Positions 21,271 through 63,603 of a DNA stretch of 64,000 bases are shown piece after piece. Source of the DNA: Sulfurovum sp. NBC37-1 (GTDB lineage Bacteria > Campylobacterota > Campylobacteria > Campylobacterales > Sulfurovaceae). Each line of letters begins with the position of its first letter. The stretch's first letter is position 1. Both the position numbers and the translations under genes were made by a program. The DNA is taken from the NCBI RefSeq assembly GCF_000010345.1, contig NC_009663.1, forward strand, positions 744,001 through 808,000, given 5' to 3'. The notes under the pieces were generated by a model, which was not told the origin of the DNA, did no database searches, and worked only from the letters and a program-made list of their open reading frames with translations.

Positions 21271-22549
<1,279 letters not shown>

Positions 22550-22554
22550 AAATA

Positions 22555-22629
22555 CACATAATGGGTTTTGCAAATGTGAGATTTTGCAAGAGGCTTTCAA
22601 GTCCTAGTCAAAGCTAAGACGAAGTTGCA
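22555..22629 (-). repeat. Truncated relic of the 63.3-kb structured repeat
   Basis: The 75 bases here (AATGGGTTTTGCAAATGTGAG... to ...AAGACGAAGTT) align with the reverse complement of 63470-63533 at roughly three bases in four. That is one arm plus the loop of hairpin 2 in the 268-bp element. The left side is lost at the IS5 end and the right side at the IS256 end. Confidence 0.5.
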
Positions 22630-23908
22630 GGTAGCGTAAAAATATTTCTGTAAATTCCAAATCAGCTATGATAAAAAGAAAAAGGAATCATAGCAATGGA
22701 AGTAAAAGAAAATAAGATAGAGTTTGACCTGCAGGAGTTGGCACCGCTGTTGATAGCCAATAAAACAGAAGGATTTAGACAGGTAGGAGAGAAGATCCTC
22801 AATGCGATATTGGAGAAGGAGTTCGAAGCCTTTATCGGTGCAGGTCGTCACGAACGCAATGAAGAGCGAAAAGATTACCGTAACAGCTATAAAGAACGAC
22901 AGTTAAAGACAACCCTGGGTCAATTGAATCTGTTACGTCCCTATGCCAGAAGCGGAAAGTTTGAAACCAAACTCTTCGAGAACTATTCCCGGATCGATAA
23001 AGCCTTGGTGTCGATGATCGTTGAGAGTTACCTCAAAGGGGTTTCCACCAGAAAAGTAGAAGCAGTGGTCTCGGCACTGGATATTGAACTTTCTCATAGC
23101 ACGGTCAGTAACCTGAGCCACGAACTGGATGAACTGGTCACAGAATTCAAAACTTCACCGCTAAGATCCTACTATCCCTACTTGTACGTGGATTCACTCT
23201 ATCTGAAAGTCTTTAACGGTTCACGGTTTGTCTCCAAAGCAGTGATGATAGCCATAGGAGTCAATGAAGAGGGATACAGAGAGATACTCGATATTGCACC
23301 AATGGAAAGTGAAGCTGTCTCAACGTATGAAGATTTCTTTGATGGTTTAAAAGAACGGGGAATAAAGAAAGTGGATCTTATTATCTCTGATGGACACAAG
23401 GGGATCAAAAAAACTGCCAGTGAAAGTTTCGTAGGCTCAAGCTGGCAGTTATGCTCGGTACACTTTAAGAGAAACCTCATGAAAGTCGTACCTCAAAAGG
23501 ATATCAAAACTATCCTTGAAGAGATAAATGTGATTCTGCATTCCAAAACTATGCAGGATGCTATTGACTATGCCAGCGGTATGGCTTCAGCCTATGAGAT
23601 CTCACATCCAAAACTGATCAAATACCTGACCAAGAACCTGATGGATGTACTGACATTTCTGGCATTTCCAAAAGCACATCATAGGAAAATTCATTCTACA
23701 AATGTATTAGAGCGATTTAACAAGGAGGTAAAGAGAAGAACGAAAGTGGTAGGTGCTTTCCCAAGTGACAACTCAGTACTACGCCTGTTGGTGCCCCTGG
23801 CAGTGGACACCAATGCCAAGTGGCTGGATAGAAAGTATGTTTCTTGGAATAATTTGGTACAATCTGATGAGGCTGAGGAAGAATTTACAGAAAATTTTTG
23901 ACGCTATC
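22630..23908 (+). mobile_element. IS256-family insertion sequence, about 1279 bp
   Basis: Imperfect terminal inverted repeats of about 27 bp: 22630 onward reads GGTAGCGTAAAAATATTTCT and the right end (23881-23908) has the matching GAATTTACAGAAAATTTTTG then ACGCTATC. Flanking 8-mers AAGTTGCA (22622-22629) and AAGTTGCC (23909-23916) agree at 7 of 8, as expected for an 8-bp target duplication with one later change. It carries one intact transposase gene. Confidence 0.8.
22696..23901 (+). CDS. IS256-family transposase
   Basis: A 401-aa DDE transposase. The triad is readable: Asp in YLYVDSLYLKV, Asp in LIISDGHKGIKK, and Glu in STNVLERFNKEVKRRTKV, the last being the IS256 C-terminal signature. The N-terminal region has the typical GAGRHERNEERKDYRNSY. 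AAAGGAATC lies just upstream of ATG 22696. The frame is intact, so the element may still move. Confidence 0.92.
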   Translation: MEVKENKIEFDLQELAPLLIANKTEGFRQVGEKILNAILEKEFEAFIGAGRHERNEERKDYRNSYKERQLKTTLGQLNLLRPYARSGKFETKLFENYSRIDKALVSMIVESYLKGVSTRKVEAVVSALDIELSHSTVSNLSHELDELVTEFKTSPLRSYYPYLYVDSLYLKVFNGSRFVSKAVMIAIGVNEEGYREILDIAPMESEAVSTYEDFFDGLKERGIKKVDLIISDGHKGIKKTASESFVGSSWQLCSVHFKRNLMKVVPQKDIKTILEEINVILHSKTMQDAIDYASGMASAYEISHPKLIKYLTKNLMDVLTFLAFPKAHHRKIHSTNVLERFNKEVKRRTKVVGAFPSDNSVLRLLVPLAVDTNAKWLDRKYVSWNNLVQSDEAEEEFTENF

Positions 23909-62102: not shown

Positions 62103-62116
62103 ATTGTTTAGTTTTA

Positions 62117-62452
62117 TTATTTACCGGTATTGCATTTACCCATAGCTTTCATATTTTTCATATTGCCTTCTGAACTGCCTGGTTCTGTAGCCAATTTGTT
62201 TGCATGTTCAAGCTCAAGTTCCGCTTTGGTTGGCTTTTTTGCCGGCTTTGTTGACTTGGTTTTCATTTTACCGCTCTGTCCGGCATTACATTTACCGGCA
62301 GCTTTCATTTTTGACATATCTTTGTCGCTGCTTTCAATACCTGATGCTGTTTTATTCGCATGCTCCAACTCTACCGCTGCTTTATTTTCTGCCTGAGCAA
62401 AACCAAATCCCAATCCGAGTGCAAGAATGCTTGCTACAACTACTTTTTTCAT
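62117..62452 (-). CDS. Secreted repeat protein (ELEHANK/GKCN), copy A
   Basis: A 111-aa protein: signal peptide (KKVVVASILALGLGFGFAQA), then two internal repeats of about 40 residues: VELEHANKTA...MSKMKAAGKCN and LELEHANKLA...MKNMKAMGKCN, joined by a Lys-rich stretch. Each repeat has one Cys, His and several Met, all possible Cu(I) ligands. Near-identical to copy B (62933). The four TGCAC boxes upstream suggest metal-induced expression. Function unknown. Confidence 0.72.
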   Translation of the reverse strand: MKKVVVASILALGLGFGFAQAENKAAVELEHANKTASGIESSDKDMSKMKAAGKCNAGQSGKMKTKSTKPAKKPTKAELELEHANKLATEPGSSEGNMKNMKAMGKCNTGK

Positions 62453-62518
62453 GTTGTGTCCTTTAAAGTGTTTTTCAGAGGTTTTACTCTCTGTACATCC
62501 GCATTATAAAAGAACAGT

Positions 62519-62556
62519 GTGCATGGAGTGTGCATAATGCCTGCACATTTCGTGCA
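62519..62556 (-). promoter_or_regulatory. Four TGCAC boxes, exact 11-bp period
   Basis: Plus-strand pentamers GTGCA, GTGCA, CTGCA, GTGCA start at 62519, 62530, 62541 and 62552. On the gene's strand this reads TGCAC-N6 repeated four times. It lies 67 bp before the copy A start. Confidence 0.65.
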
Positions 62557-62559
62557 CAT

Positions 62560-62932: not shown

Positions 62933-63268
62933 TTATTTACCGGTATTGCATTTACCCATAGCTTTCATATTTTTCATATTGCCTTCTGAACTGCCTGGTT
63001 CTGTAGCCAATTTGTTTGCATGTTCAAGCTCCAACTCAGCTTTTGTCGGTTTTTTTTCCGATTTTTCCATTTTTGATTTCATTTTTCCGCTTTGGTCAGC
63101 ATTACACTTTCCGGCAGCTTTCATTTTAGACATATCACCTGCAAAACTGTCAGGTCCTGTAGCTGTTTTATTCGCATGTTCCAACTCTACCGCTGCTTTA
63201 TTTTCTGCCTGAGCAAAACCAAATCCCAATCCGAGTGCAAGAATGCTTGCTACAACTACTTTTTTCAT
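62933..63268 (-). CDS. Secreted repeat protein (ELEHANK/GKCN), copy B
   Basis: A 111-aa tandem paralogue of copy A; signal peptide and last ~40 residues are identical, the middle differs (TGPDSFAGDMSKMK, KMEKSEKKPTK). ATG 63268 is the natural start. Its upstream region also matches copy A, but a 268-bp structured repeat (63292-63559) has been inserted between the start and the TGCAC boxes, moving them from 67 to 336 bp away. Confidence 0.72.
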   Translation of the reverse strand: MKKVVVASILALGLGFGFAQAENKAAVELEHANKTATGPDSFAGDMSKMKAAGKCNADQSGKMKSKMEKSEKKPTKAELELEHANKLATEPGSSEGNMKNMKAMGKCNTGK

Positions 63269-63291
63269 GTTGTGTCCTTTAAAGTTTTTAT

Positions 63292-63559
63292 AGGGCGACT
63301 CTGACAATAGACGGTATCCACAACATCTCCAGCTTTTGTTCATACAAGGCACTCTTTTGAAGGCCTGGCTGGAGCCAAGTCGAAAAAGAGTAACGCAGTA
63401 TGGGCGAAAGCTGGTGATGCCCGAAGGGTGGGCTTTACAAATGCAATCTTGCACAAGATATTCACTTCGTCTTGACTACGGCCAGGACTTGAGAATCTCT
63501 TGCACAATTTCACATCTGTAAAGCCCATTGTGGAAACCGTCTATTGTTAGAGGCGCCCT
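63292..63559. repeat. 268-bp element with 32-bp terminal inverted repeats and two internal hairpins
   Basis: Terminal inverted repeats 63292-63323 and 63528-63559 match at 29 of 32 positions (AGGGCG-CTCT-ACAATAGACGGT-TCCACAA). Between them are two long hairpins: arms 63329-63358/63383-63414 and 63429-63460/63496-63527. The element can thus fold as a three-way junction. It carries no gene and interrupts a unit whose uninterrupted version is at 62453-62520. A relic is at 22555-22629. Confidence 0.72.
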
Positions 63560-63603
63560 CCAGAGGTTTCACTCTCTGTACATCCGCATTATAAGAGAAC
63601 AGT

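Follow-up and report, generated by a model that had tools for sequence, protein, structure and literature searches.

The window analysed in this work, a stretch of 64,000 nucleotides, corresponds to positions 744001 to 808000 of the single-contig genome (2,562,277 bp) of Sulfurovum sp. NBC37-1. Between positions 62116 and 63289 it carries a tandem duplication of a gene for a protein of 111 amino acids, with an inserted element upstream of the second gene copy only. The gene, for which no Pfam match was obtained, is encoded on the minus strand; its first copy together with the upstream region (copy A, 62116-62559, minus strand) is 87-94% identical to the second (copy B) and provides the empty-site reference, and the copy B gene (62933-63268, minus strand) has its start codon approximately 24 bp from the element. 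The distance separating the two copies of the unit increases from 816 to 1085 bp, and this jump is located exactly at the element, confirming that an insertion entered a duplicated unit with an empty-site copy, as the original prediction had proposed. The element had been given a length of 268 bp; it is real, but inverted-repeat analysis and the boundaries shared with full-length copies elsewhere (263-268 bp) place its proper extent at 63293-63558 (266 bp, plus strand, GGGCGACTC...GGCGCCC, with GGG...CCC ends), the outer bases belonging to a decayed 4-bp target duplication. This duplication reads TATA on the left (63289-63292), where it was assigned from the sequence and from the rule of 4-bp duplications in the family, and TCCA on the right (63559-63562), both on the plus strand. 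The empty unit reads TTCA at this place (62474-62477), and with flanks that now differ the insertion in the window is an old one. A TATAAT hexamer was read in the sequence upstream of the element, on its far side from the copy B gene (63588-63593, minus strand), and was not reported by the promoter consensus scan; given its position beyond the element, a transcript of the 111-amino-acid gene that began just downstream of this hexamer would have the element as part of its 5' leader.

No gene lies inside the 266 bp, which are instead organised as nested inverted repeats (all positions on the plus strand). The left terminal inverted repeat (63293-63323), whose outermost 15 or so bases recur at the ends of the two intact insertion sequences of the IS5 family described below, is the 5' arm of an outer stem, and the right one (63527-63558), defined by inverted-repeat analysis and by the consensus fold, is its 3' arm; the terminal inverted repeats of about 32 bp had been correctly predicted, being 91% complementary over 32 bp when 63292-63323 is paired with 63528-63559. 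Hairpin 1 (H1, 63324-63419) has a conserved internal loop, AGGC/AACG, and a conserved apex, CCTGGCTGGAGCCAAG (63364-63379; family consensus CCTAGCCRTAGCTAAG), which is the inverted homologue of the apex of hairpin 2. Hairpin 2 (H2, 63430-63526), delimited by the consensus fold, covariation and the core-model match, has the apex GTCTTGACTACGGCCAGGAC (63469-63488). The Y-shaped fold with a three-way junction that had been suggested was right as to these two internal hairpins; the three-way junction itself was rejected, since a third, small hairpin, CCC-GAA-GGG (63420-63428), is nearly invariant across the phylum and makes the junction a four-way one.

Copies of the element, their ends and candidate transposases

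About 17 copies were found in the genome of NBC37-1 (G000), the full ones being 263-268 bp long and most of these being flanked by A/T-rich 4-bp duplications (TTTA, TTAA, TAAA, ATAA), and DNA searches recovered the element from 23 of 60 close-relative genomes, one of which (G041) belongs to another family. In the complete genome G016 identity among all 18 full copies is 97.4-100% (median 99.2%), and exact 4-bp duplications flank 17 of them, which points to recent movement; no PF05598 or PF01609 transposase was found in this genome, where the burst comprises L223-L242. In the Sulfurovaceae-dominated set the 4-bp duplication was exact in 52 of 92 cases. The H2 apex motif had 31 matches in the NBC37-1 genome, all of them inside copies of the element, and none in the control. 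Both the claim of mobility, borne out by the terminal inverted repeats, the 4-bp duplications and the near-identical copies of G016, and that of a family, borne out by the copies in NBC37-1 and its relatives, hold. So does the relic noticed at 22.6 kb of the window, which consists of one hairpin and part of an end (22563-22695, minus strand; core model E = 4.7e-8) with the apex motif at 22601-22620. Its neighbours are, on one side, a gene for a DUF772-type transposase (21733-22434, minus strand) and, on the other, an intact gene for a transposase of the Mutator family (IS256-type; 22696-23901, plus strand).

The original prediction had also called for a transposase with matching ends, and this was found intact in relatives and as remnants in the genome of NBC37-1 itself. 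Two intact IS5-family insertion sequences (L102 and L103) have the same terminal 15-16 bp as the element and encode transposases of 347 and 343 amino acids, respectively, which match the NCBIfam IS5 family NF033581 with 267 and 264 bits (E about 1e-78) against a cut-off of 140 bits; L103 is flanked by the target duplication TTAA. Because they share these ends, we take the element to be MITE-like and probably moved by a DDE transposase. The hairpins of the element are absent from the interiors of L102 and L103, and a deletion derivative of the IS5 partner was rejected as the interiors are unrelated. The remnants are a defective 924-bp element (L081, 1293224-1294147), with the duplication ATAT, and an interrupted element at 2558346, both having GGGCACCTCTAAAAACCC ends and transposase pieces; in L081 these pieces derive from two transposases, one of IS5 type and one of IS200 type (Y1). 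To the extent that sequence can establish it, the element is mobile and MITE-like, with ends of the DDE type.

Reduced forms also occur in NBC37-1. Solo ends (GGGNACCTCTAATAACC...) without a partner lie at 269790, 694286, 1341930, 1521873, 1708101 and 1799625 (L032, L083, L037, L086, L042 and L099, respectively), their inner side facing a start codon 30-50 bp off, and are possibly decayed copies kept as leaders. Mini-elements of 50-55 bp made of the two ends only are found at 324326, 500025, 697167, 1181287, 1400748 and 1650558 (L044-L049); several have a 4-bp duplication, and in three the junction falls at the same GGGTT direct repeat.

Copies are mostly intergenic, often tens of bases from start codons, in either orientation and with mixed orientation relative to the genes. 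The distribution of 79 copies between divergent (33), tandem (36) and convergent (10) gene pairs, for which intergenic lengths predict 31, 50 and 19%, respectively, differs mildly from this prediction. A preference for divergent promoters, which had looked strong with 18 divergent and 3 convergent sites among 42, was rejected, being weak once intergenic lengths were used as the control. Scanning the element for internal promoters or terminators gave nothing above shuffled sequences. Carriage by phages was rejected, as no match to the element was obtained in phages or viral contigs; the plasmid search yielded one match, in Sulfurovum mangrovi.

Conservation of the fold across Campylobacterota

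The element of the window folds with far greater stability than its shuffled versions (z = -11.8 as DNA, and -13.4 and -12.9 as RNA of either strand), none of 200 shuffles being as stable. The consensus of 42 distinct copies comprises the outer stem, H1, the three-pair CCC/GGG hairpin and H2, namely a four-way junction or cloverleaf. Standard pairs fill 97.7% of the cells in these copies, compared with 88.7% when columns are shuffled and 34.7-47.9% when partners are slid, and two-sided changes occur at 58 of the 96 pairs, of which 32 do not belong to the outer stem. The compensatory changes hence exceed the controls, as is generally expected of a structured RNA, and the situation that would have spoken against the predicted structure, a single copy and no covariation, is clearly not the one found. 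Comparison of one insertion site shared by two related genomes (L067 and L154, flanks 92-93% identical) identified compensatory change inside the element after divergence: an A-U pair of the outer stem was replaced by G-C or the reverse, with both sides changed, and several one-sided changes pass through G-U.

A covariance model was built from the core only (H1, CCC/GGG hairpin and H2), with the ends excluded. The covariance search called for by the original prediction gave, with this model, matches in 37 of 298 Campylobacterota genomes, which represent 17 of the 58 genera and nine family groups, the distant matches having E values between 1e-20 and 1e-35 and lying in families from which DNA searching had recovered nothing. 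An exact core pattern recovered 114 stretches from GTDB representative genomes; among the 80 of 114 matches listed these were Campylobacterota throughout, assigned to Sulfurovum, Nitratifractor, Campylobacterales or Epsilonproteobacteria. In 63 copies taken phylum-wide, with a median identity of 52%, standard pairs occupy 92.7% of the cells compared with about 63% after shuffling (maximum 64.0% in 200 shuffles), in an alignment that is fitted to the covariance model and hence biased towards the structure; three or four Watson-Crick types are present at 48 of 72 pairs of this set. The unpaired or apical motifs that are conserved are AGGC/AACG in H1, ATCTT/AATCT in H2, CCC...GGG and, at the apex of each hairpin, TAGC..GCTA.

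Long inverted repeats flank all 54 distant core matches examined (score at least 22, compared with a maximum of 12 after shuffling), and they are of several types. The main end type, GGGCACCTC, goes with 4-bp duplications, GACTTCTTGCAAAAC is flanked by TA in 8 of 11 cases, AACTGACCTTACGCAC shows a 3-bp match in 2 of 4, and GAACCCTCTGAATAACC, TCACCGCACC, AACCTGAATTCGACAG and others complete the range. One genome (G309) contains many GACTTCTTGCAAAAC-ended copies and also an insertion sequence that breaks the assembly and whose ends are nearly identical to theirs, one of these ends being followed by the start of a reading frame, MSKYKKIENRKPEQFKR; in the search for an intact partner of the GACTTCTTGCAAAAC ends in this genome, only the ends of that insertion sequence were readable. 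The fold is therefore conserved across genera while both the sequence and the end type have been replaced.

Known RNA families offered no name for this fold. Identity with an Rfam family was rejected, since no family of Rfam 15 scored above its gathering threshold in the window and a relaxed search gave only weak, below-threshold matches to microRNA hairpins; the element resembles Rfam families in being structured and covarying, and differs from them in that none reaches the gathering score here.

Strand polarity and probable selection on the core

Comparison of H1 with the reverse complement of H2 uncovered a common apex (score 50, compared with a maximum of 38 in 1000 shuffles), and the core model matches both strands in many copies. 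On these grounds we regard the element as a diverged inverted duplication, so that either strand presents the same order of first hairpin, small hairpin and second hairpin. The two hairpins differ in the wobble pairs that they accept. In a parsimony analysis of 117 copies, which rests on the tree of the repeat copies, assumes strand-symmetric mutation and uses pairs predicted from both strands, new wobble changes in H1 comprised 33 G-U and 7 A-C, favouring the plus strand (P = 4e-5), and those in H2 comprised 10 G-U and 27 A-C, favouring the minus strand (P = 0.008). Wobble cells of the phylum-wide set lean in the same direction (67:8 in H1 and 35:72 in H2). On each strand, then, wobble is tolerated in the hairpin nearer the 5' end. 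Because neither neutral copying nor a double-stranded cruciform would yield such polarity, these results argue strongly for selection of the core fold at the level of a single strand, RNA or single-stranded DNA. Wobble tolerance is the same mark in both molecules, and that the strand is RNA, or that it has any function, is suggested with modest confidence. The idea of a structured RNA contained in the original prediction is hence likely in view of the compensatory changes and the strand-polar wobble pairs.

Taking all these results together, the explanation that we favour, and to which we give somewhat better than an even chance, is that of a phylum-wide non-autonomous mobile family, moved in trans in the IS5 manner, whose core is selected as a single strand and probably has a role as RNA. 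Under this explanation an IS5-superfamily DDE transposase supplied in trans would recognise the ends and cut and paste the element, and new lineages would arise by capture of the core between the ends of another insertion sequence. The core would be selected as a folded single strand; the same order of hairpins on either strand would suit an element landing in either orientation, often in gene leaders, with transcription passing through it. Such read-through could produce an RNA fold that a host factor recognising the loops and the apex binds or processes, and this would aid the persistence of the element, which is the weakest step of the scheme. Against this explanation weigh the 18 near-identical copies of G016, a genome in which neither PF05598 nor PF01609 transposases were found, and a placement near gene starts that departs little from the prediction of intergenic lengths, with mixed orientations, which points to no specific regulatory use. 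More tentatively, and with the balance of probability against it, the family may be a parasite defined by its fold and not by its sequence: a cloverleaf recruited between unrelated insertion-sequence ends whose transposases it uses, its folded RNA or single-stranded DNA being recognised by a shared host factor.

The strongest competitor, which we judge unlikely but still worth serious consideration, places the function of the fold in single-stranded DNA: lagging-strand hairpins or a cruciform would join the ends or recruit a host factor, raising transposition with any transposase. It would account for a core kept while ends change, and for selection acting on a mobile element most directly through its own movement; the folded strand sets both ends side by side as one duplex end, and G-T pairs are tolerated in DNA too. 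A cruciform, however, extrudes both strands and would give no wobble polarity, and mini-elements of 50-129 bp that lack the complete hairpins, several of them with intact duplications, suggest that the core may be dispensable for movement, unless they are deletions that followed insertion. Less probable still is an ordinary MITE with a functionless core, its pairing being maintained by mutation alone, through template switches in replication by which one arm is rewritten to match its partner. This quasi-palindrome correction is known to act on long palindromes, and the 221 double Watson-Crick replacements counted as parsimony events are what a one-step correction would give; it nonetheless leaves unexplained both the strand polarity of the wobble pairs and the conservation between genera, at about 50% identity, of the loops, the apex and the CCC/GGG hairpin. 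That the core is a trans-acting RNA beneficial to the host and spread by transposition has a very low probability in our view: the fold and loops are conserved throughout the phylum and many genomes retain several copies, but the distribution is patchy (37 of 298 genomes), sites differ between copies, many copies are degraded and no promoter above chance was detected in the element. As to the single-strand transposition that had been hinted at, by a Y1 enzyme (IS200/IS605 or RAYT) acting on the hairpins of a REPIN-like layout, a pair of inverted hairpins that have an apex in common and show strand polarity does recall REPINs, but we hold it to be extremely improbable, since DDE transposition is indicated by the terminal inverted repeats of the full copies and by the 4-bp or TA duplications, IS5-family elements have the same ends, the apex motif is absent outside the elements, and the sole Y1 fragment seen is that inside the defective 924-bp element.

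Relation to known repeats and insertion sequences

Bacterial MITEs are usually viewed as worn remnants of insertion sequences and are defined by their ends. Here the conserved part is the interior, kept as a fold, and it is the ends that are exchanged. Should the fold prove functional, the family would amount to a natural experiment, spanning a phylum, on the effects of a structured mobile RNA or DNA, and would add many new structured leaders to the Campylobacterota of vents and sediments; it also makes it possible to test whether being structured helps a non-autonomous element to move or to be tolerated by its host. No earlier description of such elements in Sulfurovum, Sulfurimonas or Campylobacterota was found in the literature searched, which covered few subscription papers.

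REPs are palindromes of 20-40 bp that carry either a GTAG or a CGTC tag and occur free-standing or in dimers, and both types have been reported in Sulfurovum NBC37-1 (PMC3733652). The element resembles REPs and REPINs in its paired inverted hairpins with imperfect stems, but REPs are shorter and have no terminal inverted repeats or target duplications; with an apex motif confined to the elements, and with size and ends that differ, a free-standing REP or REPIN was rejected, and so was a single-strand element of the IS200/IS605 type, as terminal inverted repeat and target duplication are both present. With the IS5 family (NF033581; L102 and L103) the element shares the terminal 15-16 bp and the 4-bp duplication of the main end type, but it is devoid of a transposase and its interior is unrelated. 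It is akin to the bacterial MITEs, among which Nezha, NEMIS/Correia, ERIC and RUP are listed in PMC3733652: these are non-coding, multicopy, intergenic sequences of 70-300 bp with terminal inverted repeats and target duplications, presumed to move in trans, and the element has 266 non-coding bp, inverted ends of about 32 bp, a defined 4-bp duplication and ends matching an autonomous IS5-family element. It departs from common MITEs in being strongly structured, as had been predicted: compensatory changes have kept the interior fold, made up of two long hairpins with a small third one, across many genera, and the same interior lies between several unrelated types of ends.
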